From Candidatus Nanoarchaeia archaeon (GTDB taxonomy: Archaea; Nanobdellota; Nanobdellia; Woesearchaeales; UBA10216): DNA of 43,472 nt. The translations under genes and the position numbers were made by a program. Every line of letters starts with the position of its first letter. Positions within the stretch are counted from its first letter, which is position 1. The DNA lies in NCBI GenBank assembly GCA_028279045.1, contig JANQSZ010000016.1, positions 70,333 to 113,804 of the forward strand, in the 5' to 3' direction. This document shows, piece by piece, positions 3 through 34,707 of this stretch. The notes beneath the pieces are model-generated. The model saw only the letters and a list, made by a program, of their open reading frames with translations, was not told where the DNA came from and ran no database searches.

Positions 3-1118
3 CCAGTAGCTGGGTACAACATTCAAGAGCAGGAAGGAATTCGAGCAACTATTCCAGCTGCAGCCACTACGCACGATGAAGACGTCATCTCAACGGAAAA
101 CTTCATTATTCATACGGATCAGGAAGAAATAAACGAGCGCCGTGTTGCTCTTTCTGGTAGCGTAACCGAGCAGATTAAAGAATCTGCAATTAGAGCACGC
201 GATCACAAACTAGTCATCACATTAATCAACGAGCAGTTCATCGAAACTGATTTCATGGATCATGCTGCAGATATTATTGCTGGCATTACCAATACTGATG
301 AAGACAACCCGCAAGCTGAAGGTTGGAACAAAAACGTTCGAGATGAGATTCCTGTAACAACTGCAGGAGTTTTCCGAAAGAACGATCGTGTTGTCGAAAT
401 TCTCATTCCACAGAATGCAGATTACGCAATCACCACGAATGAAGGTATTAGCGTAACTGTTCCAAGTGAAGTGCTCGAAAACTATGATAATGATTTAGTT
501 GCACAAGATATCATTACCGTTTTCGACGAGGATGAAGATCCGCCTGATGAGTGTGCCGGTAACACGATTCCGTGCGAGTGTGGTAACGATTGTCCAACAG
601 GCGAATGTACAGGTAACCAGGATTGCCCATCCGGTCAAGTATGTTTAGACTTGCAATGTGAAGTGCCGACTGGTTGCACAGATAATAGCGATTGTTCTGC
701 TGGTCAAGTGTGTACTGGAGGCCAATGTGTAGCTGGTCCAGAGTGTACTGATAACAGTGATTGCTCATCCGGTCAAATGTGTAGTGGCGGATCATGCGTA
801 GCAGCTCCGGAGTGTACAAACAACAACGAATGTTCATCTGGAGAAGTTTGTATAGATGGATCATGCGTTTCAAGTGGGCAATGTACGGATAACAGCGATT
901 GTGCATCTGGAGAAATTTGTTCAGGTGGTCAATGTATCGCCGATCAAGGATGTACAGATGATGACGATTGTCCAGGATCACAAGTTTGTACTGCAGGTCA
1001 GTGTGAAGCAGGTCCACAATGTACATCAAACAGCCAGTGTGGAACAGGAGAAACATGTATAGACGGTGTTTGTGTAGCAGATACAACCCCACCAACTGCA
1101 ACGATTGAAATTAATTAA
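3..1118 (+). CDS. Cysteine-repeat surface protein, 5'-truncated by window edge
   Basis: The frame is open from the first bases, so the start lies outside the window. The first ~180 visible residues resemble a beta-rich domain known from surface and phage structural proteins: a GWN..VR stretch, then a YAITTNEGISVTVP-type strand. Next comes an acidic linker, then seven consecutive 23-residue repeats of the form CT.N.DC.SG.VC..G.CV, each with four cysteines. The tail DTTPPTATIEIN looks like the beginning of another Ig-like domain cut short by the stop codon. The disulfide-rich repeats imply an extracellular location. Exact function is unknown; adhesion or ligand binding is inferred. The 3' end overlaps the convergent thiolase gene by 8 bases. 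Confidence 0.85.
   Translation, partial: PVAGYNIQEQEGIRATIPAAATTHDEDVISTENFIIHTDQEEINERRVALSGSVTEQIKESAIRARDHKLVITLINEQFIETDFMDHAADIIAGITNTDEDNPQAEGWNKNVRDEIPVTTAGVFRKNDRVVEILIPQNADYAITTNEGISVTVPSEVLENYDNDLVAQDIITVFDEDEDPPDECAGNTIPCECGNDCPTGECTGNQDCPSGQVCLDLQCEVPTGCTDNSDCSAGQVCTGGQCVAGPECTDNSDCSSGQMCSGGSCVAAPECTNNNECSSGEVCIDGSCVSSGQCTDNSDCASGEICSGGQCIADQGCTDDDDCPGSQVCTAGQCEAGPQCTSNSQCGTGETCIDGVCVADTTPPTATIEIN
606..1088 (+). repeat. Seven tandem 69-bp repeats encoding a 23-residue four-Cys motif
   Basis: Seven in-frame units of exactly 69 bases, each starting at a TGT codon. Cysteine spacing is constant (C-x5/6-C-x5-C-x4-C) while other residues drift. This is a protein-level repeat, not a CRISPR array: the units diverge at synonymous and non-synonymous sites and have no spacers. 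Confidence 0.9.
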
Positions 1119-11847: not shown

Positions 11848-14250
11848 ATGAATAATCCCTATGCAGCACTATCAGAAGCAGAAGTTCAGCAGGCAATAGA
11901 AGCTGCGCTCCAAGAGCCAAATGCAACCGGATATGACCGTATCAAGGACCTTCTTGAATTAGTGGAGGATCCAGATGATGCATTTGAGCTGCAGGAACAT
12001 CTTCTTGCATTGTCTTCTGAAGCAGATCATTCAAGTAACCTTTCTGCGGTTGTCCATGCTGCGGCTGATCAAGGAAGAGATGAGTTCGATAAGTATTTTG
12101 CAGAGTATGCTGCTGAAGTGTCTTTTGGAACTGCATTTCATGAATTTCCAACAGCGCTTGTTGAAAAAAGCGGTGTAAAATTGGTTCCTCATAATCCTGA
12201 AGATTTTGAAGCGTTTGTAGAATATGCAGCAGAACTGGATTCGCCAACATGGATCAATGCTGCAACGCAATTATTCAACAACGCACCTGCACTTCCAGAG
12301 TTAGCACCGCCGTTAGCAAGAACACACATGTTGTTAGTATCCAACACGGATCCGAATGTTGGTGCAAAAGCAGCGCTTGCAGCTGACAATGAGGATCTTG
12401 TTTTCCAATGGCTTGGTGAGGAAGGCAGTTCTCTTAGCCTCGATGTACATGCGGAAATAGCACACAAGCATGGCCTGGAACTAGTAAACAGAGGAATCGA
12501 GAACATGCTTGCGCATGAAGTTCAGCCTGCTGTAATTGAAACAGCGCTGAGTTCATACGAAGGTTTGTCCCCGAATGGCAAGAGAGTTGTGCTTGGGAAA
12601 TTCATTAACTGGAGCAGCGAGTACGCACCATTTACCTCGGAAATTTTCAAATTAGGTACTGATGTTATTGCGGAGAATCCTGATAAAGGTTGGTCAGAAA
12701 CTGTTTTTGACCTTTTAGTGAAGTTTGAGCCTGGTTCTGTGGGGAGATTTATTGTAGAACAAGGGCACACAGGAAACATTCCTGATTTAGTTGAGCGTGT
12801 AGGTCCGAATAGAAGCGCTTTGCGAGGAATACAAGCAACTCTTACCGATGGCGATCAACATTATCAGTTAGCGTCAAGTGTTTTCAATCTCGACGGTAAT
12901 TTTGACGATCTTGCTACTGAAGAATACATCCTTGCACTAAAATTAGGTGTGTCAAACCCAAAAAAATTACAAAGGGAAATTAAAGCAAATGCGAAAAAAG
13001 TAGGCGAGACAGGTCAACTTGCTATCGCTCATGCGTTTTATGATGCAGATTCCTTAGAAAGCGCATTCGGAGTTCTGTCAGCATCTGCTCGTGTTGGATT
13101 TGCAACGAGTTTAGCCGACTCCGGAGTGAGTAGCGTAGATGAGGAAATGTTGTTGTTCGAAGAAGTTATCGCTGAAAACGTATCAGGAGATCGCGAGGAC
13201 GAGCTTGTTCACGCGCTCGCGAATGTTGTTGTTCAAGATCCTGCAGCAACAACAGAACAAAAACAGCAAGTGGCTTTGGATCTTTTTGATTACGCTGGAG
13301 ATCGACGAGGGCATTCAGCCAGGGTTGGGAGCCCAGCAGAAGCAAGTTTACATCACAGTTATTTTATTCAAGGATTAGATATCGGAAGAACAGTTTTAGG
13401 AGAGGGAACTCCTGCATTCCAGGAAACAATGCTTGAGGTAAGCAGAGATCACGATCATTTTTCAAAGATTCGAGAAACAGTTAGTATGCTCGGGGTTGAT
13501 AGCATAGAAACCCTTCGTCGAGTATACAATATTTTCGATGGTCAGCCTTCAACCCAGCATTGGATGATTGATTCATTTATTGGCGATCGTGTTGAAGAGA
13601 TTGAACAAGCAGCAGCTACCAGGAATCATGCAGCTCGGCGAGATGCATATCGTGAGGCTGTTGATGCCCTGTGCTTTGAAGGCAATTTTGATTTAGCCAT
13701 CGAATTTGCCCAAGCCAATGCATTTTCGTTTAGTTCTGTTGAACTTCGCAGGGAATATGAGGAAGAAAAACAGACTTTTTATGCTGGAACTATCATAGTG
13801 GGTGGAAAGGTACGTCCTGCCTATCGTACTTTTAATACCTTAAAATCTGGAGATCCGGAAGTGCGTCGGAAGGAACACGACGTCGACTACACCGGGCGAG
13901 TAGGAACACAGGCAGTTCAACAAGGTAAGAGAACCGGCGATCTAGAACTACAAATTCAAGGATATCTTTGGCAAAATGATGCAGAAAAAGCACAACGAGT
14001 GTTTACTGGCCAAACAGTAAGCCGTATTCGTAATGCTGATGACACGTACGCTGCCGTCGAAGAAGCCCTGAAACACGCACAGGAATTTGGTTTCGACCCT
14101 GCAAACACACCAATTATTGCAAGCACCATTCAAGAACAGATGGAAGCTGCAGGGCAAGATCGTGATTATTCTACAGCACTTAGATGGGCAGAGCTCGGCG
14201 GGTTAAGAGAAAGAGTAGAAGCATACAACACGTTACTTACTCAGAAATAA
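11848..14250 (+). CDS. Large alpha-helical repeat protein, 800 aa
   Basis: Starts MNNPYAALSEAEVQQAIEAAL. The whole sequence consists of short amphipathic helices (A, E, L rich) of about 15 residues separated by Asp/Asn/Gly/Pro turns, as in HEAT/TPR-like solenoids. Repeat boundaries are too degenerate to define by eye. The C-terminal ~170 residues (from about FEGNFDLAIEFAQ) look TPR- or clathrin-repeat-like. There are no membrane segments, signal peptide or cysteine clusters, and no catalytic motif. Likely a protein-binding scaffold in the cytoplasm; partners are unknown. Its 3' end overlaps the convergent neighbour by 14 bases. Confidence 0.8.
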   Translation: MNNPYAALSEAEVQQAIEAALQEPNATGYDRIKDLLELVEDPDDAFELQEHLLALSSEADHSSNLSAVVHAAADQGRDEFDKYFAEYAAEVSFGTAFHEFPTALVEKSGVKLVPHNPEDFEAFVEYAAELDSPTWINAATQLFNNAPALPELAPPLARTHMLLVSNTDPNVGAKAALAADNEDLVFQWLGEEGSSLSLDVHAEIAHKHGLELVNRGIENMLAHEVQPAVIETALSSYEGLSPNGKRVVLGKFINWSSEYAPFTSEIFKLGTDVIAENPDKGWSETVFDLLVKFEPGSVGRFIVEQGHTGNIPDLVERVGPNRSALRGIQATLTDGDQHYQLASSVFNLDGNFDDLATEEYILALKLGVSNPKKLQREIKANAKKVGETGQLAIAHAFYDADSLESAFGVLSASARVGFATSLADSGVSSVDEEMLLFEEVIAENVSGDREDELVHALANVVVQDPAATTEQKQQVALDLFDYAGDRRGHSARVGSPAEASLHHSYFIQGLDIGRTVLGEGTPAFQETMLEVSRDHDHFSKIRETVSMLGVDSIETLRRVYNIFDGQPSTQHWMIDSFIGDRVEEIEQAAATRNHAARRDAYREAVDALCFEGNFDLAIEFAQANAFSFSSVELRREYEEEKQTFYAGTIIVGGKVRPAYRTFNTLKSGDPEVRRKEHDVDYTGRVGTQAVQQGKRTGDLELQIQGYLWQNDAEKAQRVFTGQTVSRIRNADDTYAAVEEALKHAQEFGFDPANTPIIASTIQEQMEAAGQDRDYSTALRWAELGGLRERVEAYNTLLTQK

Positions 14251-17233: not shown

Positions 17234-18412
17234 ATGGAATATCAAGAAGCCCTGGATTACATCAACAGCCTAGAACTCTTTGGCATGAAGCTGGGGCTGG
17301 AGAACATCACTGCGCTAATGGAGGTTCTAGGCAATCCCCAGAACGACTATGATATCATCCATGTTGCAGGCACGAACGGCAAGGGATCTGTGGTTGCCTT
17401 TTGCTCATCAATCTTGAGAGGCGCCAGCATAAATCACGGATCTTACATCTCTCCTGCCTTGGTTGATTTTCGCGAACGCATGACTGTAAATGGCAATTGG
17501 GCTGAGGAAAAAGAAATTGTTCAGCTTGCAACAGAAGTGAAAGCAGCAGCCCAAAAAATACCAGAGTACCAAATTACTTTCTTTGAATTCATTACTGCAA
17601 TGGCATTCCTGCATTTCAAAAAGAAAAACGTGCAAGTTGTTTTGCTTGAAGTTGGACTTGGCGGCAGGTTAGATGCAACAAATGTCGCAAATGCAGGTAT
17701 CGCTGGAATTACAAACATTTCTCTCGAGCATACACAAGTTCTTGGCAATACTATTGCAGAAATTGCACGAGAAAAAGCAGGCATTATCAAACAACACGCT
17801 CACATATTCACAACAGAAACAAATCCAGAAGCGCTGAGTGTATTCAAAGAAGTGTGTCAGAAGCAGCATTCCATTTTGCATCCAGTTGGCGTCGAGAATT
17901 TAGAAGTTTCTCTCAACGGAAAACATCAAAAAATAAATGCATCGCTTGCAAAAGCATTGATGAGAGCGTACAGTGTCCGCGAAGAAGATATAGAAAATGG
18001 TTTACGCGTTGCGCGGTGGCCAGGGCGCCTAGAAATCGTTCAACATAACCCGACTATTTTGTTAGATTGCGCTCATAATCCTGCTGGCATGAAAACTGCA
18101 GTTGATTTCATTCACGAGCGAGAAAGAGAAAGAACAATTTGCGTACTCGCAATTTCCGATGACAAAAACCGAGATGAAATGATTCAGCTCCTCAATCCAG
18201 AAATCGATGTTTTCATCGCTACGCAATCAAAGTTCAAGCCCACGCCAGTAAGCGAATTGGCAGCCAGCCTGCAAGATACCAAAAAAGAGCTACACGAACA
18301 CCCAGAAGTCAAAGATGCTATTAATAAAGCAAAGGAGCTCGCCACCGACGCTGATTTAATAGTGATCATTGGTTCAATCTTCATGATTGGCGAAGCAAAA
18401 AGGTTCTTATAG
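17234..18412 (+). CDS. folC: Folylpolyglutamate synthase / dihydrofolate synthase
   Basis: 392 residues of the Mur-ligase-like FolC family, which adds glutamate to dihydropteroate or folates using ATP. P-loop AGTNGKGS (45-52); YISPALVDFRERM; LLEVGLGGRLDATN; NISLEHTQVLG with AREKAGI; the C-terminal domain has WPGRLEIV and LLDCAHNPAGM. The protein is slightly shorter than typical bacterial FolC (~420), mainly in the C-terminal domain, but all motifs are present. FolC is patchy in archaea and may be acquired. The start matches a TATA-like element and the family N-terminus. Confidence 0.94.
   Translation: MEYQEALDYINSLELFGMKLGLENITALMEVLGNPQNDYDIIHVAGTNGKGSVVAFCSSILRGASINHGSYISPALVDFRERMTVNGNWAEEKEIVQLATEVKAAAQKIPEYQITFFEFITAMAFLHFKKKNVQVVLLEVGLGGRLDATNVANAGIAGITNISLEHTQVLGNTIAEIAREKAGIIKQHAHIFTTETNPEALSVFKEVCQKQHSILHPVGVENLEVSLNGKHQKINASLAKALMRAYSVREEDIENGLRVARWPGRLEIVQHNPTILLDCAHNPAGMKTAVDFIHERERERTICVLAISDDKNRDEMIQLLNPEIDVFIATQSKFKPTPVSELAASLQDTKKELHEHPEVKDAINKAKELATDADLIVIIGSIFMIGEAKRFL
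18405..18412 (+). promoter_or_regulatory. Weak TATA-like element before the multi-HTH gene
   Basis: TCTTATAG overlaps the folC stop and lies ~25.5 nt upstream of the ATG at 18434. Readthrough from folC is equally possible. Confidence 0.35.
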
Positions 18413-23566: not shown

Positions 23567-23692
23567 ATGAAAAGAGGCGAATTGATCACTCAGCATGTCA
23601 TCATGATGATCATAATAGCGCTATTCCTGATAGCTATGCTTTTCATCGCGAACAATATGCGCTGTGCCATCACAGGAGGGTTCCTATGTTGA
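23567..23692 (+). CDS. 41-residue membrane peptide, first gene of surface cluster
   Basis: Reads MKRGELITQHVI then a continuous hydrophobic helix rich in Ile, Leu and Met, ending NNMRCAITGGFLC. The N-terminal KRG followed by a hydrophobic stretch resembles class III (prepilin-like) signals. It is leaderless (TATA 25.5 nt upstream) and its stop overlaps the next start (ATGTTGA), with the SD of the next gene (GGAGGG) inside its coding sequence. Function unknown; a small pilin-like or membrane adaptor subunit is plausible. Confidence 0.7.
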   Translation: MKRGELITQHVIMMIIIALFLIAMLFIANNMRCAITGGFLC

Positions 23693-24447
23693 AGCGCGGT
23701 CATTTGCTTGAAGGCACTTTGGGATTGATAATCGGTGTTATTGGTGCTTTTGTTCTGCTGGTAGTTTTTGGAATTATTTTTGGATTCATTGGTCAGGCAA
23801 CCAATATTGCAATTTGTCAAACAACCCTAACAGCATCAGAGTATCAGCATACGGTAACTGATTGTGTTGGAGGAGGATCGGTGTTGGACGTTCTGGACTG
23901 TAGAACCGTGCACATTACAGTTTTTGAAGATGAGTATCAAGTTAATGGTGATAGGCGAGGGGGTATCGAAAAAACTTTCGATAACTCAATCAGAGAAATT
24001 TTTGCTGATCAGTACCAAACATGTTGGAATACCTTTAGTGAAGGTCACGCAGATCCTTTTGGGAATAGGGAAGATGGAGAATCAATTTGCATTCCGTGCG
24101 CAGAAATTGAGTTCAATCTTGATCGAGATAGAAAAATAGATGGGCTCTATCAATACATGAATACACATGACACAAAAGAAATTGGCGGCACGTATGCAGA
24201 ATATCTCAACAAGGGTGCTCAATTTACTGACGAGGAAGATTTGAATTTTGAGATCGATACGAACAAAGATTATGCAATTATGTATATAGTGGCAGACGAC
24301 GGGTTCTGGAATGATGTCAACGACGCAATACCGTTCAAAACGTTCATCGGAGAAGCAGTACAGATTTGCGCAGAGAAACATCATCTATCTATGAGGTTGT
24401 TGGAAGCGAAAGATGTTGAAGAAGTGTGTGAAAAAGTAGAAATCTAA
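23686..24447 (+). CDS. Membrane-anchored Cys protein A of the surface cluster
   Basis: 253 residues starting MLKRGHLLEGTLGLIIG at an SD-preceded ATG (GGAGGG, 23674-23680). One N-terminal membrane helix (~10-38) precedes an external domain with scattered cysteines. The core motif CW-x2-F-x2-G-x2-D-x-FG, then C-x2-C-x2-IEF (~115-145), is shared with the next gene, as is a following GLYQYMN/GIYNHIH segment, so the two are paralogues. KRG before the hydrophobic stretch resembles a prepilin signal. The longer upstream ATG at 23560 is rejected because it precedes the predicted transcription start. Confidence 0.8.
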   Translation: MLKRGHLLEGTLGLIIGVIGAFVLLVVFGIIFGFIGQATNIAICQTTLTASEYQHTVTDCVGGGSVLDVLDCRTVHITVFEDEYQVNGDRRGGIEKTFDNSIREIFADQYQTCWNTFSEGHADPFGNREDGESICIPCAEIEFNLDRDRKIDGLYQYMNTHDTKEIGGTYAEYLNKGAQFTDEEDLNFEIDTNKDYAIMYIVADDGFWNDVNDAIPFKTFIGEAVQICAEKHHLSMRLLEAKDVEEVCEKVEI

Positions 24448-25616
24448 TGGTAACAACAAGTGGTGTGCTAATTTCTATCATTTTAGTAATTGTCACAGGG
24501 ATCATTGCGTTGGGAATACAGACTGGCTTCATTGATTTTGTCGATCAGCAACAAAGCGAGAGTTTGTGCAAAAATAGTGTGCGTGCACACCGCGCAACAA
24601 TGGTTGCAGGTGTGGTAAAAACAAACGATATCATTTGCCCGACAAATCATGTTGAAATAAAGAATAATGTGAAAGATGAGGACGCGCTTAACTTGATAGC
24701 CAACGAGATGTACACTTGTTGGGATAACTTTCTCCGAGGAGGAGAAGACTTGTTTGGCGCCGAAACAACATACTGTAGCATTTGTTCAATTATTGAGTTT
24801 CAAGATGAAGAGCGCGAACTTTCCGGTATTTACAATCACATACATTCCACTACGTTGGTTCAGGGCGGCGCCGTAGATGAATTCTATGGTTCTATTCTGG
24901 AACAGGACGAGCAAATCAGGACGTATGGAGATTTCTTGCACGTATTCAAATCTCCAAAATACTACGAGCATGGCGTAGAAGAAATCACAATTAGTAATTT
25001 TGAAGGCGGTCCAGGATGGGAAGGTGATGCTGAAGATCTTCTATTTACACTTGACAATGTAGAGTATGAACTAACGGGCGATAGACCATATGCAGTTATT
25101 TTCCGCTATGCGAAGGGTCAGGAAAGCGCACAAGGCGTAGCACGGTTTTATGAAGATGTAACTGGTTCTGTTGGAATGAAAGTACTTCTTGGTGGAGGAA
25201 CAAAAACATTTCTGACAGAGACGTCTGGCTCAGACGCTCCGGATAGAGACGGAGAAGGGTTGACAGATCGGGCAAGAGAAGTAGCAAGAACAGCAACAGA
25301 TAATGTTGGGACACTAGACATAATCTCTGTTCGTACCACTCCAGTGCTTCGGCAATTAAGTGGATGGGCTTCAACAGGAGGGATGAAAGTAATAACCTCT
25401 GTCAAGCCTCTTGCTCCAAGCGCTCGATTCCTAGGGCCGGTTGCTAGCAAGGCAGCTTGGCCTCTAACTGTTGCTGCAATGGGAGATGTGTTTAGAGTGG
25501 CAGAATCCAGCCAGGATCGTGATCCTGAATGGGTTGCTCAGACAATACTGATTGATTATACTGAAGAAGCCATTGAGGCAAGTGGCTGTCAGTATATCGC
25601 AACAAGGCAGGAATAA
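24447..25616 (+). CDS. Membrane-anchored Cys protein B, paralogue of A
   Basis: 389 residues, coupled to the previous gene by a TAATG overlap. N-terminal helix (~5-30) followed by an external domain with the shared CW..F..G..D.FG...C.IC..IEF motif at ~88-116, then ~200 residues without a paralogue in protein A. Residues ~290-345 are low in charge and rich in Gly, Ala, Ser and Pro (GWASTGGMKVITSVKPLAP...), which could insert into or lie on a membrane. No enzymatic motif is seen. Confidence 0.8.
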   Translation: MVTTSGVLISIILVIVTGIIALGIQTGFIDFVDQQQSESLCKNSVRAHRATMVAGVVKTNDIICPTNHVEIKNNVKDEDALNLIANEMYTCWDNFLRGGEDLFGAETTYCSICSIIEFQDEERELSGIYNHIHSTTLVQGGAVDEFYGSILEQDEQIRTYGDFLHVFKSPKYYEHGVEEITISNFEGGPGWEGDAEDLLFTLDNVEYELTGDRPYAVIFRYAKGQESAQGVARFYEDVTGSVGMKVLLGGGTKTFLTETSGSDAPDRDGEGLTDRAREVARTATDNVGTLDIISVRTTPVLRQLSGWASTGGMKVITSVKPLAPSARFLGPVASKAAWPLTVAAMGDVFRVAESSQDRDPEWVAQTILIDYTEEAIEASGCQYIATRQE

Positions 25617-25621
25617 TAATC

Positions 25622-25629
25622 ATTATATA
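25622..25629 (+). promoter_or_regulatory. TATA box 2 of the surface cluster
   Basis: ATTATATA, 26.5 nt before the ATG at 25652; starts a second transcription unit. Confidence 0.65.
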
Positions 25630-25651
25630 GAGAGTAAACAGGAAAGAAAGT

Positions 25652-25795
25652 ATGGGATTGACAATACATCAACTCGGATTATTGATTCTTGGAATCATTG
25701 CATTAGTCATTGCAGTACTAATTATAACTGACATTGGCGATGTCATTGTAGACGTATTCGAGAAGAGTATTGCAGTAATACTTTTTGGAACATGA
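25652..25795 (+). CDS. 47-residue membrane peptide of the surface cluster
   Basis: MGLTIHQLGLLILGII then an almost uninterrupted Ile/Leu/Val/Ala helix, with an acidic patch (DIGDVIVDVFEK) and a second hydrophobic end (SIAVILFG). The ATGA overlap with the next gene and the TATA 26.5 nt upstream support it as real. Function unknown; its pairing with the 464-residue Cys protein suggests a membrane partner. Confidence 0.7.
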   Translation: MGLTIHQLGLLILGIIALVIAVLIITDIGDVIVDVFEKSIAVILFGT

Positions 25796-27186
25796 AAAAG
25801 GGTATGGAATTCAGCGTGGGGAAATTGCTAGGTGTACTCATAGCAATTGGATTAATTGCGGTTTTGCTAGGTGCGTTTGGAGACACTGGATTCAAGTTGT
25901 GGGGAGGAATACGAGATACAATCGGTGAAGAAATTACCACCGTATTTTGTGAACCTGGCGAAGAAGTTTGCCCTGGTACGAATTTTTGTGTTCCTATTAC
26001 CCATCTTTCCGATATCAATCAAGATCCAAATGCTGATGGAAAGCGTTTTTGCATTCCCGGTGATTTTACCAACACCCGGCTGGAATATTGTGAAGCTGCC
26101 ACCTGCGAGATAAAGGGTCCGTGCACCGATGAAGAAGGCTTGCGTGGCGGTGAATGTGATGTCGGTGTAGAGCAGTTTGGTGGAAATTGTGACTCTGATT
26201 TTGATTGCGGAGATCACGGAAAGTGTTTTGTGTATGATGATATTGTTGTGGGGCAGATCATGAATGCTTATCGACAGTATTATGAAAATGATGGCGCGGC
26301 AAAAACAGGAAGGTATTGGGAGAGTCCTGATGGACGTTTAGGGAGTTTTGACGAAAAAGGTTTCTGCGGCTGTGCACCTGGGACTGTGACTCCGACATTA
26401 GAGGATAAAAGTTCCTGCAGCCAGATAGGCGGTGTCTGTGCGACAAATTTTTGGGACTGTGACTTCGCAACTCACCGTGCTTTAGAATTCGGTTGCGAGG
26501 AAGACAGATCTTTCTGTTGTGCACCAAAAGAAAATGTCGAGGGAGAGTGGTGCGAACCAGTAGCTGATTGTGACGATGGTGAAATAAGATGTTCAGGTAA
26601 TAACGCGTGCGTTTCTGAAGACCAATACTGTGATCCTGAAACATACAAGGATACTAGGAATAATCAATGCCTTGACAGAACATGTATGTTAACAAATCTA
26701 AAGTGTTCAGATGACGAAGATAATCCAGAAGGATTGCTTGATGGAAGATGTCGAGAGAACGTAATACCAACCGGGATCCGTTGTTCCGATACAGATGAAG
26801 AGAATGAAGAAAACAGAGATCGGTGCGGCGATGGCGCATTCTGTTACCATTACGATGAAGATCTAATTGATTTGTATAATAGCGGGGTTCCTCCTGAAGA
26901 TCTAACAGATCCGATTCAGAATTTTTGGAGTAGGACCATATCCGGTGGAAAAAATGTAGATCCTTACACAGGAACTGGTTTCTGCACTTGTGAAGAAGAA
27001 TATACGGCGCCTATCCTCAATAAAGAGTCGTGTAGAAGTGTAGGAGGTACATGCTCTCATAGTGCCACTCATTGTGATTTGAATACAATGTTCGGCGTAG
27101 AAGGAGGATGTTCAGGAGATCCAGACGGAACGATTTGTTGTTTACCTAAATCAAAAGCAGGTGATTATTGTGAACCAAGTAAATAG
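25792..27186 (+). CDS. Secreted 40-cysteine protein with internal duplication
   Basis: 464 residues. The N-terminus MKKGMEFSVGKLLGVLIAIG is prepilin-like (KKG before a hydrophobic helix, ~8-30). The rest is external and holds 40 cysteines in two tandem ~200-residue units (~52-250 and ~254-460). The C-terminal halves of both units share near-identical cysteine spacing (6-47-2-15-7-7-12-7-1-11 versus 6-47-2-14-7-7-12-9-1-10) and motifs GFCxC, SC..(I/V)GG.C and CC.PK. It must be heavily disulfide-bonded. Likely a rigid binding or stalk module; not a known family to me. Confidence 0.82.
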   Translation: MKKGMEFSVGKLLGVLIAIGLIAVLLGAFGDTGFKLWGGIRDTIGEEITTVFCEPGEEVCPGTNFCVPITHLSDINQDPNADGKRFCIPGDFTNTRLEYCEAATCEIKGPCTDEEGLRGGECDVGVEQFGGNCDSDFDCGDHGKCFVYDDIVVGQIMNAYRQYYENDGAAKTGRYWESPDGRLGSFDEKGFCGCAPGTVTPTLEDKSSCSQIGGVCATNFWDCDFATHRALEFGCEEDRSFCCAPKENVEGEWCEPVADCDDGEIRCSGNNACVSEDQYCDPETYKDTRNNQCLDRTCMLTNLKCSDDEDNPEGLLDGRCRENVIPTGIRCSDTDEENEENRDRCGDGAFCYHYDEDLIDLYNSGVPPEDLTDPIQNFWSRTISGGKNVDPYTGTGFCTCEEEYTAPILNKESCRSVGGTCSHSATHCDLNTMFGVEGGCSGDPDGTICCLPKSKAGDYCEPSK

Positions 27187-27445
27187 TGCGAAAAAAGCTC
27201 AAGGATTATCGATAAACGTTATTTTAATTGCAGTCATCGGATTAATTGTTGTTGTAGTTCTTATTGCTATTTTCTCCGGTGTGATAAAGGATGATTTTAT
27301 TCCGTTCAAAGAAGGCATCACAGAATGTAAGGAGCCAAGTTATTGTTCCAGTAATGCTGCATGCGAAGATGGCGGAACTCCAGTAAAGCTTGGCTGTGAT
27401 GAAGAAACAGATCCAGGAGAATGGTGTTGTGTCATTGATGAATAA
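27170..27445 (+). CDS. Small pilin-like Cys protein, 91 aa
   Basis: GTG start at 27170 (the GTG at 27161 is the alternative), overlapping the end of the previous gene. KKAQGLSINVILIAVIGLI is a typical DPANN pilin-like N-terminus: basic residues, Gly, then a hydrophobic helix (~15-38). A short external domain with seven cysteines follows, ending GEWCCVIDE, which resembles the CC ends of the 40-Cys protein. Probably a minor pilin or secreted subunit of the same assembly. Confidence 0.75.
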   Translation: MNQVNSAKKAQGLSINVILIAVIGLIVVVVLIAIFSGVIKDDFIPFKEGITECKEPSYCSSNAACEDGGTPVKLGCDEETDPGEWCCVIDE

Positions 27446-27992
27446 GAAGGGGATAAGTGTTCAGGTAGCAGTCTCTGTACTCATGATAGGCTTCCTTATC
27501 TTTGCAGGATTCGAACTGCTGACTGGCCTTCTGGGCACTGAAGACACTGCCCAGGCAGGCACGGTATTCGAGGAAGTCACTACCCATACAATTGATGAGC
27601 TAGAAGATGGAGATTCCGATACTCTGCCCTGGTTTTCTCTTCCAAAAAATTATTACCTATTCGCTTTCGATAAAGGAAAGCCAGGAATCGATTTTGGCGA
27701 TAGTGATGAAGATTTTGATGTGAGCCGGCCGCAAGGGCTTGCTCATTGTGGCAAAACAAAGGCATGCGTCTGTATTTGCGAGAAGGAGTGCAACCCAAAT
27801 GAAGAACTGGTTGAGTGCAAGCAATACAACCATATTGACGAGTTCCGTATGAGTGTTGGAGATGGCGAGAGTAACAATGAAGGCAACGAGATAGGAAGGA
27901 GATATAGCGTTGCGATCAAAGGTGATGGCAATTCCCATAGCCTGGAATTCTCTCTAATTGGAAAATCCTTGCTTATTGAGCCTTCTAACTGA
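27438..27992 (+). CDS. Pilin-like membrane-anchored protein, 184 aa
   Basis: Start ATG at 27438 (MNKKGISVQVAVSVLM) overlaps the previous stop by 8 bases. The KKG followed by a hydrophobic stretch (~6-28) fits a class III signal. The external domain has a CGKTKACVCICEKEC cysteine cluster at ~105-125 and ends in beta-like SLEFSLIGKSLLIEPSN. An upstream in-frame start at 27390 lies inside the preceding gene and is rejected. Function unknown. Confidence 0.8.
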   Translation: MNKKGISVQVAVSVLMIGFLIFAGFELLTGLLGTEDTAQAGTVFEEVTTHTIDELEDGDSDTLPWFSLPKNYYLFAFDKGKPGIDFGDSDEDFDVSRPQGLAHCGKTKACVCICEKECNPNEELVECKQYNHIDEFRMSVGDGESNNEGNEIGRRYSVAIKGDGNSHSLEFSLIGKSLLIEPSN

Positions 27993-27997
27993 AAACC

Positions 27998-28005
27998 TTT
28001 TTAAG
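27998..28005 (+). promoter_or_regulatory. TATA box 3 of the surface cluster
   Basis: TTTTTAAG, ~27 nt before the ATG at 28029; third transcription unit, containing the peptidoglycan hydrolase. Confidence 0.65.
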
Positions 28006-28028
28006 TACAGTATCCGATAAGTGACTAT

Positions 28029-28901
28029 ATGGTTGATCAGGGCGACCAGAGTATTCCGTGGCATGTTCTAATCTCAGCTCTTATGCTGTTTGTAGTCATA
28101 CTGTTCATTGGGTTGGTGTATGAGGAGCGAACCAGCGATACTACGCTTGAAAAAGTCATTATTGCAAGGGATATTGCTCTCTTGCTAGATACAGTGTATG
28201 CTGCTCCTGGCGATATTCAGTACATCTACAACCTTGGCAAATACCAATACGGCATCAAGGTACGTGCTGGTGTTGTAACGGTCTCAGATCCCTCAACTTC
28301 TGTTTCTTATGTTTATGCAGAGGACGGCAGTTTCGACAAAAATCCTGATTTTGAGTCTACTGATATTATCAAACAAGTTGTATTACGCAAACGCGGAAAC
28401 GAAGTTACTGTTTCTGGCGTTGCCGCGGACATAACGAGCAATGCTCGTAGTGAGTTCGAGCGTTTCATGGACTTTGTTGATTGGAATGCGTGGCAGGAAG
28501 AAGAGAACGGTTTGTCAGTCAAGTTTAATTTTGATCCGTTGTTGTTTGATGACTCTTACTTCATTCATTTCTATGAAGATGACGATGTAAAAAGGGTGAG
28601 GTTAGAACAAGAAACAGCTGAAGGAATTGTTGGAGAAACATCTGAAATTGACGAAGATCCAGATGGCTTGAGTGGTAGACTTGTGATAACTGGTGCAAGG
28701 AATGCGGGCGATTATCAAAAGTTTCTCGATAATCCTCAGTGGCAATCTGGTGTAATTTCTCCTAGTGGAGCAGAGCCGGAAGTTGCAGAGGATGTTATAA
28801 TCAAGAGGAGTTCGTTAATAATTACAAAATGTTGGGATCGGTTAGTGATTGCAGCAGATTCTGAATTTGTGGAGGGGGCTGAATGCGCAAGAAGGGGTTA
28901 G
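28029..28901 (+). CDS. Single-pass membrane protein of the surface cluster, 290 aa
   Basis: N-terminal helix (IPWHVLISALMLFVVILFIGLVY, ~9-31) followed by ARDIALLLDTVYAAPGDIQYIYNLG and strand-rich external sequence. A similar (A)RxxALLLDTxxx helix appears in the M23-M15 fusion just after its anchor, suggesting a shared stalk or packing element. It lacks the KKG motif. The C-terminus contains the only two cysteines, perhaps one disulfide. Overlaps the next gene by 19 bases. Confidence 0.78.
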   Translation: MVDQGDQSIPWHVLISALMLFVVILFIGLVYEERTSDTTLEKVIIARDIALLLDTVYAAPGDIQYIYNLGKYQYGIKVRAGVVTVSDPSTSVSYVYAEDGSFDKNPDFESTDIIKQVVLRKRGNEVTVSGVAADITSNARSEFERFMDFVDWNAWQEEENGLSVKFNFDPLLFDDSYFIHFYEDDDVKRVRLEQETAEGIVGETSEIDEDPDGLSGRLVITGARNAGDYQKFLDNPQWQSGVISPSGAEPEVAEDVIIKRSSLIITKCWDRLVIAADSEFVEGAECARRG

Positions 28902-29398
28902 TGTTTGAAGCGCTTGAATGGATCCCTCGGTGGGTGTTTGCAGTAATAGTCATTATTACTTTCATTGCCGTAACCGATGCATACATTATCCGAGATTTAG
29001 ATGTTGCAGATGTTGAGTCTGCATTAATTGCAGAGCGATTATTCATTGCAGAAAGCACTTTGGGTGCTGAGGAGGCCGGCATTACTCGGATTGGAAGAGT
29101 AGACCAGAGAAAGGAAAACAGGCTCAACAATCCTGAAAGTTTCGAGCCGGATTTAAACAGGGCAGTTCAGTTCAGAAGAGAGTCGCACGCCAGTGCAGAA
29201 GTTATTTTCAAAGAACAGAAAACATGGCTGCAAAAAGAGCAGCTTCTAAATTATTTGTTGTTTGCTCGACGAGGATTACGAGGCCCGGGAAGTGCTCAGG
29301 TTCTTGATTGGTCTGTTTTTGTAGTTGATTCTGAAAATAAAGCAACAGTGTTGAATGCATCAGTGGTAATACCAAATGATCAGAAAAGGACAATTTAG
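28883..29398 (+). CDS. Pilin-like membrane protein, 171 aa
   Basis: MRKKGLVFEALEWIPRWVFAV: KKG then a hydrophobic stretch with Glu at about position 5 of the putative mature protein, the classic type IV pilin residue, followed by a helix (~14-34). The external part (~40-171) is charged and helical. Translationally overlapped on both sides (19 and 23 bases). Probably an assembly subunit; identity unknown. Confidence 0.78.
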   Translation: MRKKGLVFEALEWIPRWVFAVIVIITFIAVTDAYIIRDLDVADVESALIAERLFIAESTLGAEEAGITRIGRVDQRKENRLNNPESFEPDLNRAVQFRRESHASAEVIFKEQKTWLQKEQLLNYLLFARRGLRGPGSAQVLDWSVFVVDSENKATVLNASVVIPNDQKRTI

Positions 29399-29879
29399 TT
29401 TGTGGGGAGATATCATAGGCGCGTTCTTGCCATTTTTCCTATTTACAACACTCCTTGCAATACTGCTTCCATTGTCAAGTTTTTTCGGTGCTGGGCTCGA
29501 TCAAGTTCAGCAAAATGTTGATTCTCAAATTGATGAGATACAAAAAATTCGTGTTGAGCATGATTTGATTGCATTAATGCAGCATAAATTCGAAATTGAT
29601 GATCCCGGTGTAAGCAATACATTGACAATTGCAGAATGGATGATCGAGTATCATAGAGAAGAAAAGGAAACTATCAAGTTTCGGTTGATCGAGGAATTGG
29701 AGAACATTGCCACTGACAAAATGTGCGGTGAACTTACCGTAAAGGTCGACGACGACAGATTGTTTGGAGAGGATTTTGAATTCGGAAAATGTAGTCAAGG
29801 AGATAGAGTAAGTGCTACATTGTATCTTCCATTGTCCGATGGAGAATTGTTGGAGGTAGAACTTGAGGAAATTTTCTAG
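29376..29879 (+). CDS. Pilin-like membrane protein, 167 aa
   Basis: MIRKGQFSLWGDIIGAFLPFF: RKG motif followed by a hydrophobic helix (~12-36), then an alpha-helical external region and a C-terminal beta-like domain with two cysteines (~113 and ~135). Start ATG is inside the upstream gene's 3' end. Directly precedes the M23-M15 fusion gene with one base between stop and start codon, so the two are likely co-expressed and may interact. Confidence 0.78.
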   Translation: MIRKGQFSLWGDIIGAFLPFFLFTTLLAILLPLSSFFGAGLDQVQQNVDSQIDEIQKIRVEHDLIALMQHKFEIDDPGVSNTLTIAEWMIEYHREEKETIKFRLIEELENIATDKMCGELTVKVDDDRLFGEDFEFGKCSQGDRVSATLYLPLSDGELLEVELEEIF

Positions 29880-29880
29880 G

Positions 29881-32109
29881 ATGGGAAAGAAAGGGTACAC
29901 ACTATTTTCTGTAGGAGTATTTCTCATGTTTGTCATATTTAGTATGCTTTTCTTAGCAGACATTATCGGCCGTGCCAATGAACTAAAAGGCAACGCTCCA
30001 CTTGGCGCACGTCAAGCATTGCTTCTTGATACGTACATCAGCGCAGAGAAATCAATCTTGTTTGCAGAGCACGCTGCTCTGTTTGCGACCGATGATGCAA
30101 TTGTACAACTCGCAAGCAATGCCGGCACATTTGTCCAACCAGTGTATGATGAAGGCGATACGGCGGTAGCATACGTTGGTGGGAGCTGCGGTTTCCACGA
30201 GGATAAAGTGCTGCTCAACGATGTTCTAGAAGGAACGTGTTTCCCTAGTCCAAAATCTGCGCAAGCACATCTTGCTGGATATTTCAATGAAGAGCTTGAC
30301 AGATACATAGTCAAAGAACCTGCTCGTAACTTGCCTTTAAACAATTATGACTTGGAAATTATTGGCAGTGTTGCAACAGCAAATGCCAGGAGAAAATTGG
30401 TAATTACAGAAGGTGAAGCAGTTCGTTCCCGTGTTTCTGGTTTGCCATGGCCTATGGAAGGGCCCCTTACTGATGGATTTGGTATAGTCCCTGATCCTTT
30501 CAATCCTTCACAAAATCGCTGGCATGGTGGCATTGATATCGCAGCGATTTCAGGAACAAAGGTTGTTGCCGTCGACGATGGTGTTGTTGTGTATGTGGGT
30601 GATGACGGAGGCTTCGGCGGCACAGTAAGAATAGATCACGGCAATGGATTGTTTACCAGCTATAGTCACTTAAGAGAGTTCAAAGTTGATGTTGGTGATC
30701 CTGTGAGTACTGGTGATTGGATTGGTAATTCTGGTGGATCTATAGATGATCCTGAACGGGGCACGGTTGCTGATCCAATGCATGGATCCAGTACTGGTGC
30801 TCATTTGCATTTTGATTTCAGAGATAATTTAGCATATCAGGCTCAGCCAGGTCAAATGGAGTTAGATCCTTTTTGTTTTTTATCGCCGATTAGTGAAGAT
30901 GGTCATCAGTTAAACTATGAACCGCAGTGTGACGGTGTTAAACCGCTTGAAGAAGGCACTCAATTACAAGTACAAGGCATCACAGATTTCATCCAATATA
31001 CTATTTATCCGTCCTTTGAATTTGATTTTGAACACGACTTATCTGTGTATGACGATGTAACGTTGCTCGCTCAAGATATCATTGACACGTGCCGCCTGCA
31101 TATCAGTATTGTGTCCTGTGCGTACCCTGAAAACGCACGAGGATTTAGCAGTATTAGTGTGCAGGTTGGCTCGGTCGATGATCGTATCGTTGTTGTCAGC
31201 GCAGAAAGAAACGGATTGAATTTTAACTTCGCACTCCAAATTCCTCGTCGGAGTTTCACCTTTCCTGGCGACGACAGATATTTTATTTACAGCGGCATAA
31301 CTCGTACAGACATTTCAACGTTTCCTGTTAACAATGCTCTATACATTGTGGACGAGTTCGAGCAGTACGCTGTTATTATTACCGAGGAAAACCGCCAGGA
31401 AGTTCAGGATCAAATTTGGTTGGGAGCAACTGCAGTTATTCTCAACGTCGGTAACCCGCCAAACATGGAACCTAAACCACCAGCACCTGTTGTTGGTAGA
31501 TTAATTCCATCAAGTCCCGGGGTTCAGCCGCAGTTGCCGCAAATTCAAGGGGAGTTAGATTGTACAGATATTCTAGCACCAGTCAACAGGCAATATGGTT
31601 TCAGTTCAGATTGCGAGCCTGATGATTTACGAAAAATAGATAGCAAGTATGCCCTAAGCAACAGAGGTCATTGGGTGCGAGAGGCAGTGTTGCCACATTT
31701 AGTAGATCTTCTGGACGCAGGCCGTGCAGCAGGCCATCCAATTGGGCTAGTGTCAACCAATCGTACGTACGAGTATCAGGCTAGATTGAGGACATATCAA
31801 TCAGGAGATAGCACTGCGGATGCAGGGCATAGTGAACATCAAATGGGAACAGCTGTGGACATTGCAACATTACAAACTGCGTCATTAGTTGTCACCGGAA
31901 AAGAGCCTGAATTTGTTTGGTTGGCAGAGAACGCAGTAGACCACGGTTTTGTTCTCAGCTATCCAAAAGGCAATGGCATTTACATTTATGAGCCGTGGCA
32001 TTTCCGGTGGGTAGGAATACCAGTGGCAGCAGAGATTAATCGCCAGATTGAAGACGACCAGAACAACATCAACAAGCCAGATGACTATTTCCGTGCCGAA
32101 TGGCAATAA
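29881..32109 (+). CDS. Membrane-anchored M23 endopeptidase - M15B (VanY-type) carboxypeptidase fusion
   Basis: 742 residues. N-terminal GKKG plus hydrophobic helix (~6-28) anchors the protein outside the cell. Residues ~185-335 are an M23 (LytM-type) metallopeptidase: HGGID (His215, Asp219), HGSSTGAHLHFDF (His308, His310). After a ~220-residue middle region of unknown fold comes an M15B D-Ala-D-Ala carboxypeptidase (~560-720): NRTYEYQ, SEHQMGTAVDI (His653, Asp660) and EPWHFRWVG (catalytic Glu704, His707). All zinc ligands are intact in both domains. Both families cut bacterial peptidoglycan peptides. ATG 29881 is preferred to the TTG at 29863 inside the upstream gene. Confidence 0.93.
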   Translation: MGKKGYTLFSVGVFLMFVIFSMLFLADIIGRANELKGNAPLGARQALLLDTYISAEKSILFAEHAALFATDDAIVQLASNAGTFVQPVYDEGDTAVAYVGGSCGFHEDKVLLNDVLEGTCFPSPKSAQAHLAGYFNEELDRYIVKEPARNLPLNNYDLEIIGSVATANARRKLVITEGEAVRSRVSGLPWPMEGPLTDGFGIVPDPFNPSQNRWHGGIDIAAISGTKVVAVDDGVVVYVGDDGGFGGTVRIDHGNGLFTSYSHLREFKVDVGDPVSTGDWIGNSGGSIDDPERGTVADPMHGSSTGAHLHFDFRDNLAYQAQPGQMELDPFCFLSPISEDGHQLNYEPQCDGVKPLEEGTQLQVQGITDFIQYTIYPSFEFDFEHDLSVYDDVTLLAQDIIDTCRLHISIVSCAYPENARGFSSISVQVGSVDDRIVVVSAERNGLNFNFALQIPRRSFTFPGDDRYFIYSGITRTDISTFPVNNALYIVDEFEQYAVIITEENRQEVQDQIWLGATAVILNVGNPPNMEPKPPAPVVGRLIPSSPGVQPQLPQIQGELDCTDILAPVNRQYGFSSDCEPDDLRKIDSKYALSNRGHWVREAVLPHLVDLLDAGRAAGHPIGLVSTNRTYEYQARLRTYQSGDSTADAGHSEHQMGTAVDIATLQTASLVVTGKEPEFVWLAENAVDHGFVLSYPKGNGIYIYEPWHFRWVGIPVAAEINRQIEDDQNNINKPDDYFRAEWQ

Positions 32110-32150: not shown

Positions 32151-33122
32151 ATGATTAAAATTCCGTATGACGACATTGTTTCTAAAATTCAGGCCGGTAC
32201 CGGCTTATCTCAAGACGAAATCGAGTCAAAAGTCAAGCAGAAGATGGATCTCCTCGCTGGTTTAGTAAGTAAGGAAGGGGCAGCCCATATTATTGCGAAC
32301 GAGCACAACATCAAGCTCATCGAATCGGTTTCTGGCGCTTTTAAAGTGGACAAGCTGTTTGATGGCATGCGTGATGTCGAAGTCACTGGAAAAGTGCTCC
32401 GCTTGTACGAAACACGCTCTTTCAACACCAATGGCAGGTCAGGTATGGTCGCGTCAATGGTCGTTGGTGATGAAACAGGGTCAATTCGATTAGTGTTGTG
32501 GAACGAACACGCACTAAAGGCAGAGCAGATCAAAGAAGGTAAGATTCTCAAGGTTCATGGCGCGTATGTAAAAAACAGAGATACTGGAATCGAGCTCCAT
32601 CTGGGAAGTAAAGGAGACGTCCAAGTTGATCCACCAGGCGTTACGTTAGATAATGTGAAAGAGCTCGCTCCGAAACAACCAGTGGAACGAAAGAAGCTCA
32701 TTGACATCACAAGCAATGACGATCGCGTTGAAGTGATGGGAACAATTGTTCAAGTGTTTGATTTACGTTTCTTTGAAGTTGATCCAACAACAGGCAAGAG
32801 AGTAAAACCTGAAGATTTGGTTGGTCAACCAGGATATTCTTACGTACTAAACGCGTTTGTCGACGACGGTACAGAAAACATGCGGTTAGTGTGTTTTCGA
32901 GACCAGGTATGTCAATTGCTCGGCAAAACACACGAAGAAGTTCTCTCTTATAGAGAAAACGCAGGCAGCTTTGAACCAGTAAGCACAGAATTGCTCGGAA
33001 CAATCATCAAAGTTGCGGGTCGCGTAAAGAACAACGAAATGTTTAACCGGCTCGAGCTCGTCGCAAACAACGTCGAGCAAGCAAACCCTTCTGAAGAGAT
33101 AGAACGTCTCCAAAGTCAATGA
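32151..33122 (+). CDS. Archaeal RPA-like single-stranded DNA-binding protein
   Basis: 323 residues. A helical N-terminal region (~1-65; DDIVSKIQ..TGLSQDEIESKV) is followed by an OB fold (~70-165; DVEVTGKVLRLYETRSF...GSIRLVLWN) and a second OB-like domain (~185-305; DRVEVMGTIVQVFDLRFFEV...MRLVCFRDQ). This layout matches archaeal RPA41-type replication factor A subunits, which coat ssDNA during replication and repair. No zinc finger is present. Coupled to the downstream membrane protein by an ATGA overlap. Confidence 0.88.
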   Translation: MIKIPYDDIVSKIQAGTGLSQDEIESKVKQKMDLLAGLVSKEGAAHIIANEHNIKLIESVSGAFKVDKLFDGMRDVEVTGKVLRLYETRSFNTNGRSGMVASMVVGDETGSIRLVLWNEHALKAEQIKEGKILKVHGAYVKNRDTGIELHLGSKGDVQVDPPGVTLDNVKELAPKQPVERKKLIDITSNDDRVEVMGTIVQVFDLRFFEVDPTTGKRVKPEDLVGQPGYSYVLNAFVDDGTENMRLVCFRDQVCQLLGKTHEEVLSYRENAGSFEPVSTELLGTIIKVAGRVKNNEMFNRLELVANNVEQANPSEEIERLQSQ

Positions 33123-33562
33123 GGTTTCTTACCCATATTGTAGGCGGTGTTGCTGCTGGTCTTTTCATAACAAATTTTTATCCCGGCATTCTAATTATAG
33201 CAGTCGCAGCGATTGCTTCCGGCATTCCTGATATCGACACGCCAAAATCAAAATACGGCAGGCGCATCCAGCCGTTTTCTATAATCTTCGCTGCATTTCT
33301 CAAGCACCGCGGCGTGTTTCATTCCTTACTAGCAGCAATTCTCCTTTCCCTACCGCTCTATATTATAGAACAATCCTGGGGAATTGCATTCTTTGCCGGC
33401 TACATTTCGCATTTAGTTCTCGATTCTTTAAACAAGAAAGGAACCAAGCCACTCTGGCCACTCCCGCTAAAAACAAAAGGACCAATAAAAAATGGCAGCG
33501 TCGGTGAATTTCTCATTCTCACTCTGCTTGTTGCTGCAATAATTGTTCAGATCATTTTTTAA
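33119..33562 (+). CDS. YdjM-type membrane-bound metal-dependent hydrolase
   Basis: 147 residues with about four hydrophobic helices. Metal-ligand-like motifs of the YdjM/DUF457 family: TH-x-VGG (5-10), IPDIDTP (~36-42), KHRGVFHS (~62-69) and SHLVLDSLNKKG (~97-108), ending in a membrane helix. The substrate of this family is not established; phospholipid-related hydrolysis is often suggested. Co-translated with the RPA-like gene, though no functional link is obvious. Confidence 0.88.
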   Translation: MRFLTHIVGGVAAGLFITNFYPGILIIAVAAIASGIPDIDTPKSKYGRRIQPFSIIFAAFLKHRGVFHSLLAAILLSLPLYIIEQSWGIAFFAGYISHLVLDSLNKKGTKPLWPLPLKTKGPIKNGSVGEFLILTLLVAAIIVQIIF

Positions 33563-33585: not shown

Positions 33586-34707
33586 ATGCGTGTTTCGAGA
33601 AGAAAGTTTCTGCGAGATTCAGGAAGAGTAGCAGCAGGTATTGCCGGCGCAGTTTTGATTGGCTGCGGTGACGAATCAGAAGCAGCAGTACGCATTCGGC
33701 CAGCAACCGTGGATAGGTTTCGTGAGGAATGGTCTGCTCCTCGGTCTTCATCTTCACCTGTTGTTCCTGAAGTAGGATTCGATCCTGTACCTTTTCCATT
33801 CCCAATTTACACTGATGAAACTTCAACAAAAGTTGCGAATTTCTGGCCACAAACATGCCATGGAGATCCAGCACCTCGTGCGGATGCTCTCGAGGAAATT
33901 CTAGAAAACAGTAACGCTACAAACTCTAGCGATTCGATTTCTCCCTCGGTAAGGGAGCAAATTGAGCAAAGAACTGTGGGAATTTCAGGTTTGTTGAATA
34001 CCCGAATTTTTCGAAGTTACGGACACGGGTTCAAGATCTCAGATGAATATGTTGTAACAGCTGCTCATGTACTTGGTGGTTTGGCAAATCATATTGATGA
34101 TAGTTACTTTGGTCCGGCGATTAAAATGGGTAGAAAGGGTGCGAGTCGGGTTCATTTAGAGCGAGGTAACATATCCTTTATTTTCAAACCAACAAGTTAT
34201 GCAGTGATTGTTGAATCTGGTGACGGCATTCCACAGTACGCAGATTCAGTGCAACGTTCCTTGGATGCAGATGTTGCATTATTACACATAACGTCTTTTG
34301 AAAAAACAGATCCGGTTCCAATGAGGCCGTTGAGCGACGTGAAGGAAGGAGAATCATTGTATGCGTCTAGTGGAGGTCCAAGGATCAGTTTGGATTTGAA
34401 AAAATTGCGTGACGATGAAAGGTCATGGCTCCGGTATTCGGGCGAGTTGACAGGAAGGCGTACAGATATTCACGAACGAGAAAATGAGTGGTCTGCAGGA
34501 CTTCAGCACACACATGAAGTTGTGATTCCAGGAGTCGCAGGTTTCAGCGGAATGGGAATATTCGATTCTGATGGAAACTATGTTGGTATGCTGAATTCTG
34601 GAGCGAGAAAGATAGGCAATGAAGTATACAGCACAACAAGTATAACCTCCAGCGAAGAGATTCTTCCATTAATTAGAGCAGAACAGCACTATCTCCAAGA
34701 TTGTTAG
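33586..34707 (+). CDS. Tat-exported lipoprotein trypsin-like serine protease
   Basis: 373 residues. The N-terminus has a twin-arginine motif (SRRKFLRDSG, 4-13) and a lipobox LIGC with Cys27, so it should be exported folded and lipid-anchored. Catalytic triad in trypsin/HtrA order: His161 (VVTAAHVLGG), Asp229 (DADVALLHI) and Ser321 (VAGFSGMGIFDSDG). There is no PDZ domain. It sits 1.5 kb downstream of the surface cluster and could mature or degrade surface proteins, but it has its own promoter. Confidence 0.88.
   Translation: MRVSRRKFLRDSGRVAAGIAGAVLIGCGDESEAAVRIRPATVDRFREEWSAPRSSSSPVVPEVGFDPVPFPFPIYTDETSTKVANFWPQTCHGDPAPRADALEEILENSNATNSSDSISPSVREQIEQRTVGISGLLNTRIFRSYGHGFKISDEYVVTAAHVLGGLANHIDDSYFGPAIKMGRKGASRVHLERGNISFIFKPTSYAVIVESGDGIPQYADSVQRSLDADVALLHITSFEKTDPVPMRPLSDVKEGESLYASSGGPRISLDLKKLRDDERSWLRYSGELTGRRTDIHERENEWSAGLQHTHEVVIPGVAGFSGMGIFDSDGNYVGMLNSGARKIGNEVYSTTSITSSEEILPLIRAEQHYLQDC

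Follow-up and report, generated by a model that had tools for sequence, protein, structure and literature searches.

Modular pilins and the murein hydrolases of archaea have each been described on their own. Modular (bimodular) type IV pilins, such as PilB of Streptococcus sanguinis, have been catalogued in 264 architectures, a few of them with peptidase modules of the S74 and M26 families (PMC8179133); that survey is framed around bacteria, and the word archaea is absent from the accessible part of its text. Peptidoglycan hydrolases (PGHs) are encoded by murein-less archaea, prominently Nanoarchaeota, and two haloarchaeal enzymes kill bacteria, as reported in a survey restricted to proteins with a cell-wall-binding domain, which detected PGHs in ~5% of archaeal genomes (Strock et al. 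2025, PMC12352652); neither pilin nor type IV occurs in its accessible text. Here, we analysed a 43,472-nucleotide stretch of DNA (the window) from a Candidatus Nanoarchaeia archaeon of the order Woesearchaeales (assembly GCA_028279045.1, contig JANQSZ010000016.1, positions 70,333 to 113,804 of the forward strand), which carries at 23567-32109 a cluster of genes, g1-g11, ending in a large protein with two murein-hydrolase domains. We propose, with a probability of roughly two in three, that this locus encodes a modular pilin-like display apparatus presenting exchangeable murein hydrolases to bacteria. In the literature searched, seen in part and leaving most subscription journals and preprints outside the search, we found no prior description of the locus or of its hydrolase slot.

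Compared with the modular pilins, the module here is placed between the two core domains of a single conserved family, and about ten families of murein hydrolase replace one another there; we regard the locus as kin to the modular pilin, though its range of cargo and its biological setting are unusual. From the same organisms, large murein-like lytic transglycosylase proteins of Pacearchaeota and Woesearchaeota (fam00969, PMC8204110) and 'vampiristic' metagenome-assembled genomes of Woesearchaeota (PMC9723730) have been reported, likewise with murein suggested as the target, whereas the accessible accounts describe a single enzyme type, proteins of up to 3,000 amino acids (aa) and neither a pilin-like operon nor an exchangeable slot. 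The type IV pilus loci of DPANN archaea resemble ours in being conserved across the same lineages and in their proposed role in partner contact, but include, in the accessible text, CpaF, TadC and coiled-coil proteins (Hamm et al. 2024, PMC11291902), whereas g7-g11 stand beside genes for an RPA-like and a YdjM-like protein. Tail-associated lysins and injection-system spikes are, as g11 would be, contact devices with interchangeable wall-cutters, and g11 proteins include Phage_lysozyme2 and VgrG3-like matches; unlike those devices, the cluster holds no tail, sheath or spike proteins, and its parts are pilin-like. Bacterial minor-pilin and pseudopilin tip complexes (FimU-PilVWXE; GspH-I-J-K) comprise small pilin-like genes followed by a larger one, and in GspK a domain is inserted in the pilin fold. 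We obtained no sequence or fold match between these complexes and g7-g11, and the likeness is one of functional analogy only.

The carrier protein g11 (29881..32109, + strand; 742 aa) has a GKKG signal. Its N-core (29881..30435, about residues 1-185), delineated from alignments, hidden Markov models (HMMs) and an AlphaFold2 (AF2) model, comprises a long helix (residues 5-36 and 41-79) and a beta head; an M23 metallopeptidase domain (30523..30828) occupies a slot between the N-core and the C-core (30940..31200), the latter a YxxxPSF domain placed by HMM positions and alignment; and a VanY/M15 D,D-carboxypeptidase-type domain (31669..32016) lies in the tail. Pfam assigns Peptidase_M23 to residues 215-316 (E 1.7e-23; 83.1 bits against a cut-off of 28.7) and VanY/M15 to residues 597-712 (E 5.6e-20; 71.9 bits, cut-off 25). 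An earlier interpretation of this DNA from its letters and open reading frames (ORFs), the sequence-only reading, had called both domains intact, and their motifs are indeed present: HxxxD (HGGID, 215) and HxH (GAHLHF, 306) for the M23 ligands, which are almost invariant among the M23 domains compared, and SxHxxGxAxD (SEHQMGTAVD, 651) and ExWH (EPWH, 704) for M15. Sequence matches in the PDB are to M23 peptidoglycan peptidases and to LdcB/DacB/YodJ-type carboxypeptidases, and the best fold matches of the folded g11 fragment are M23/LytM structures. A Pfam scan returned no cell-wall-binding domain in the window g11, which places it outside the modular PGH definition of Strock et al.

In hydrolase-free relatives of g11, the C-core directly joins the N-core, and in an alignment with the protein of genome G008, which has the identical gene order g7-g8-g9-g10-g11-RPA-YdjM and a g11 without hydrolase, the window M23 domain sits between core domains that are contiguous in G008. 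Other lineages fill the same slot differently. Pfam assignment of single members, which replaced a single-linkage clustering that merged almost all inserts, identified SLT transglycosylase, NlpC/P60, Amidase_2, Amidase_3, M15, M74 and 3D domains in long g11 relatives, along with GH25, phage-lysozyme (Phage_lysozyme2 in two proteins) and a VgrG3-like family (in one). With local family HMMs seeded from the Pfam-assigned members, at least one murein hydrolase was found in g11 at 77 of 123 non-redundant loci and at least two at 14; the ten enzyme groups are SLT (29 loci), M23 (23), M15 (11), Amidase_2 (10), NlpC/P60 (9), 3D (5), M15_3 and M74 (2 each), and M15_4 and Amidase_3 (1 each). Where loci had been selected on their RPA gene, a choice independent of enzyme content, g11 carries a hydrolase in 34 of 62. 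Whatever the enzyme, the first insert mostly starts at about residue 175-240, right after the N-core, and in some loci g11 is split into a gene for the N-core and enzyme followed by an adjacent gene for the C-core and tail. The M23/M15 pair of the window g11 is one local variant. Several g11 proteins have long C-terminal tails to which no domain is assigned.

The distribution of these enzymes implies repeated exchange. On a tree of RPA from 91 loci, the minimum number of changes is 13 for SLT, 10 for M23, 8 for M15 and 5 each for Amidase_2 and NlpC, and sister lineages differ, as in a fully supported clade that unites L102 and L107 (M23 plus SLT) with L108 (Amidase_2 plus SLT). Three hydrolases (Amidase_2, M23 and SLT) share a single g11 at L093 and L097, and one g11 of another order carries Amidase_2. 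A set of 80 genomes holds 79 SLT and 75 M23 genes, of which 18 and 21, respectively, are within 2.6 kb of a g11 core; these counts are upper estimates because the genomes were picked partly for long g11 frames. That a pilin-like assembly presents wall-cutting enzymes to bacteria, as the sequence-only reading had suggested, is supported by the recurrence of unrelated murein hydrolases at the same place in relatives. As a separate observation, one g11 (L087:3-2489) combines NlpC/P60 with an L,D-transpeptidase (YkuD) and a polysaccharide deacetylase.

The exchanged domains cut glycan strands, amide bonds or stem peptides, and the substrate they have in common is murein. A search for the penicillin-binding transpeptidase (PF00905) gave no match in the genome of the window (G000) nor in 76 of the 80 genomes, while the same search matched in 10 of 10 bacterial controls. 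Full matches occur in two genomes (G028:C1:1062871-1063686 and G129:C43:4430-5272), where they may represent contamination or acquired genes, and two more have partial or weak matches. A Mur-ligase-like gene in the window (17234-18412) was considered as a sign of a murein-like wall and rejected, being FolC of folate metabolism (TIGR01499, E 3.5e-104); this check for Mur ligases covered only the window. Because the substrate is shared, the transpeptidase nearly absent and the Mur-like gene FolC, the most likely target is foreign murein, that of bacteria. Remodelling of the archaeon's own envelope by these enzymes strikes us as very improbable: M23 and M15 are able to cut other peptides, and four of the 80 genomes do have full, partial or weak transpeptidase matches, but the interchange of glycosidases, amidases and peptidases in one slot leaves murein as the only common substrate, 76 of the 80 genomes gave no transpeptidase match, and the Mur-like gene of the window is FolC.

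The locus is conserved well beyond the window. Within the order, the genome of the window being that of a Candidatus Woesearchaeota, a g11 core profile matches 201 of the 288 genomes searched, and the order g7-g8-g9-(g10)-g11-RPA-YdjM is conserved, with g7-g11 in constant order in the 83 loci fetched by g11. In a set of 163 loci (the window, L005, L006 and L039-L198, with some duplicates), profile matches number 118 for g7, 131 for g8, 137 for g9, 79 for g10 and 150 for g11; YdjM is present in 66 and RPA in 132, the latter count owing in part to the selection of L119-L198 on RPA. The locus set was chosen partly by score or frame length, nearly all the genomes were assembled from metagenomes, and contig ends truncate some of the g11 genes. 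Two genomes of the window's own family also have the cluster, and most public records with the locus bear the name Candidatus Woesearchaeota or Nanoarchaeota/Nanoarchaeia. A check on synteny set beforehand thus found the homologues ordered rather than scattered across the order, so that the cluster is not a product of chance. The sequence-only reading had proposed a search for a conserved order of ten genes beside M23-M15 proteins; the synteny is real, but the conserved unit is g7-g11 with RPA and YdjM, and the M23/M15 pair is local.

This synteny also refutes an origin of the arrangement in binning or assembly, with bacterial sequence fused to archaeal contigs, an explanation to which we assign a practically negligible probability. 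Nearly all the records are, it is true, metagenome-assembled, and one contig with the locus (L150) is titled Candidatus Aminicenantes bacterium; however, independent contigs obtained in many studies show the gene between the same archaeal neighbours, and a single frame encodes the archaeal core protein with the hydrolase domains inside it. RadA and the RPA-like protein among the window genes mark the window itself as archaeal, and the L150 contig, which carries an archaeal locus, is probably mis-binned.

Outside the order, within the same class, another 27 genomes have a g11 core; its frame is mostly ~150-300 aa long, and g11 in these other orders is usually core-only. At the loci examined there, the order of g9 and g11 is kept; g8 accompanies them in nearly all and g7 in most, and most also have RPA and YdjM downstream. 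Since core-only g11 is retained in other orders, the apparatus appears to be older than its hydrolases.

The N-terminal sequences of the cluster products point to a pilin-like character. The sequence-only reading had described at least seven cluster products with a [KR][KR]G motif ahead of the membrane helix, and we find exactly seven (g1, g2, g5, g7, g9, g10 and g11), with KKA in g6; the [KR][KR][G/A] signal thus precedes the helix in 8 of the 11 cluster genes and in none of the 36 other window genes of at least 100 aa. The class III-like signal is present in 77 of 99 members of the g7 family, 102 of 110 of g8, 84 of 111 of g9 and 56 of 64 of g10, and is retained overall in 76-93% of members of the g7-g11 families. 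A prepilin peptidase, whose presence had been proposed as a check, is encoded in the genome (PF01478 at G000:C30, E 3.5e-14), as are two FlaI/TadA-type ATPases (G000 C27 and C29), which lie with TadC-like and further KKG pilin-like genes. Modelling by AF2 gives both g8 and residues 1-480 of g11 an N-terminal helix of ~50-75 residues, followed by beta strands. We consider g11 to be a candidate modular pilin, in that an N-core with a class III-like signal is joined to M23, SLT or NlpC domains, the pilin identity of the N-core being read from signal and architecture.

Several observations weigh against a pilin-like display apparatus. The KKG signal is missing from the window copies of g3, g4 and g8, and a scan of the window cluster revealed neither an ATPase nor a TadC platform gene. 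Confidence of the AF2 models is middling (predicted local distance difference test scores of 69.6 for g11 and 68.8 for g8), and a Foldseek search with the g8 model gave no significant match to a solved pilin in the PDB, the matches returned being meaningless; we therefore infer the pilin fold from signal and architecture. Many loci, several of them in the window's own family, have no recognisable hydrolase in g11, so the apparatus can do without the enzyme, and murein hydrolases occur elsewhere in the 80 genomes, so display on g11 would be one route among several. Finally, not every domain carried by g11 is a murein hydrolase: two of the proteins have a calcineurin-like phosphoesterase, and one has a TPM domain. 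The phosphoesterase, at L111:7002-8480 (within the order) and L218:6748-8142 (outside it), stands after the core in place of the hydrolase, and teichoic acid is a conceivable target.

The missing signals, the lack of assembly genes in the locus, the unproductive fold search and the many other secreted hydrolases of these genomes would all suit a simpler arrangement, in which the products are separate membrane-anchored surface proteins that form no filament and g11 is a tethered ectoenzyme for feeding on murein debris or weakening bacteria that touch the cell. We think this unlikely: five adjacent helix-anchored families with the same signal in most members, kept together with the carrier throughout the class, are better explained as a co-assembled complex, and the genome does possess a prepilin peptidase and pilus ATPases. 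Another arrangement, rather unlikely in our view, is that the apparatus serves mainly adhesion, DNA uptake or contact with a (possibly archaeal) partner, its hydrolase helping it through the murein of a donor or biofilm rather than in attack or entry. Such a role would fit the core-only g11 of other orders and of several genomes of the same family, and all cultivated DPANN archaea have archaeal hosts, according to Hamm et al. (PMC11291902). It accounts less well for proteins that combine as many as three complementary ways of cleaving murein (L093, L097) and for the repeated swaps of enzymes, both of which speak for selection to break bacterial walls of diverse kinds.

For the favoured pilin-like display apparatus, the following sequence of events can be envisaged. 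The g7-g11 products would be inserted in the membrane through their N-terminal helix and cleaved after [KR][KR][G/A] by the prepilin peptidase of the genome; a FlaI/TadA-type ATPase and TadC platform encoded elsewhere would then extrude or cluster them in trans, as a minor-pilin-type complex with g11 as the enzyme carrier. The slot between the pilin-like N-core and C-core would accept a murein hydrolase, here M23, supplemented by M15/VanY in the tail, and on contact the enzymes would be brought to bacterial peptidoglycan, opening or loosening the wall for predation, competition or episymbiont access. Filament assembly, processing, the tip position of g11, enzyme activity and purpose are each points that we infer from sequence. 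A more ambitious version, in which the locus encodes a contact machine found throughout the order, rooted in the class and devoted to breaching the walls of bacteria by means of a pilus-like tip complex that bears an interchangeable cartridge of murein hydrolase, seems to us somewhat short of an even chance; if it were correct, much of Woesearchaeales would prey or live on bacteria rather than archaea.

That the carrier of a conserved surface locus has repeatedly gained different murein hydrolases points directly, on genomic grounds, to bacteria as partners or prey of Woesearchaeales, and with the locus come a named gene, a module open to testing and a marker gene. If the proposed function is right, pilin-like parts would deliver wall-cutting enzymes between domains of life, and the slot would be a source of natural hydrolase combinations.

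As for the remaining genes, the sequence-only reading had the boundaries of the cluster (23567-32109) and its same-strand, consecutive run right and counted ten genes where there are 11 ORFs; they overlap or abut except for gaps of ~35 bp ahead of g4 and g8, which divide the cluster into three candidate transcription units. It had also described one N-terminal membrane helix per product, predicted here in all 11, two membrane peptides of 41-47 residues (g1 and g4) and little recognisable besides the last gene, in agreement with the lack of any Pfam or NCBIfam family above cut-off in g2-g10 (g1 was too short and left out of the scan). All genes lie on the + strand. The first, g1 (23567..23692), encodes a 41-aa membrane peptide with an MKRG signal, its KRG preceding the single helix; g2 (23686..24447) a 253-aa single-helix surface protein with an LKRG signal and a homologue in G003; and g3 (24447..25616) a 389-aa single-helix protein with a homologue in G003 (E 2e-21), of which g2 is a diverged paralogue (blastp E 8.6e-10). 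The HMM for g2/g3 also caught short helix-only ORFs, and no counts were taken from it. The 47-aa peptide g4 (25652..25795) has a 54-aa positional counterpart in L005, and g5 (25792..27186), a cysteine-rich protein of 464 aa with 40 cysteines and an MKKG signal, has no homologue by HMM in other loci, its family not being traceable beyond the window. A pilin-like peptide of ~88-94 aa with the KKA signal is encoded by g6 (about 27179..27445; start at 27161 or 27179); it bears a weak likeness to a pilin-like gene at L007:762-1046, and its HMM, which drifted to any transmembrane stretch, was not used.

The conserved part opens with g7 (27438..27992), a 184-aa pilin-like protein with an NKKG signal that belongs to an order-wide family, and continues with g8 (28029..28901; 290 aa), a core member of the locus with an ARDIALLLDTxYAxPGD motif after its long N-terminal helix. 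Next come two pilin-like proteins, g9 (28883..29398; 171 aa; RKKG signal) and g10 (29376..29879; 167 aa; IRKG signal). Downstream of g11, Pfam identifies an RPA-like OB-fold protein (32151..33122, +), a conserved neighbour that is probably a syntenic marker and not part of the apparatus, and, as second conserved neighbour, a YdjM-like membrane protein (33119..33562, +). Adjoining these, at 33586-34707, is a gene for a trypsin-like protease with a twin-arginine, lipobox-like N-terminus. Elsewhere in the window (255-1118), a cysteine-rich protein matching the TIGR04201 Cys-rich repeat lies, like g5, near pilin-like genes.

Two further sets of pilin-like genes were seen in the same genome. A second pilus locus on G000:C27 (L204:7577-8449 and 12429-13745; L205) groups TadC-like genes and a FlaI/TadA-type ATPase with six pilin-like genes; an M23 gene lies directly past the pilins on the same strand, and a gene with a weak SLT domain on the other side. 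A third run, just upstream of the window at G000:C29:65074-68072 (L007:5075-8073), consists of four KKG pilin-like genes and ends in a large cysteine-rich secreted protein.

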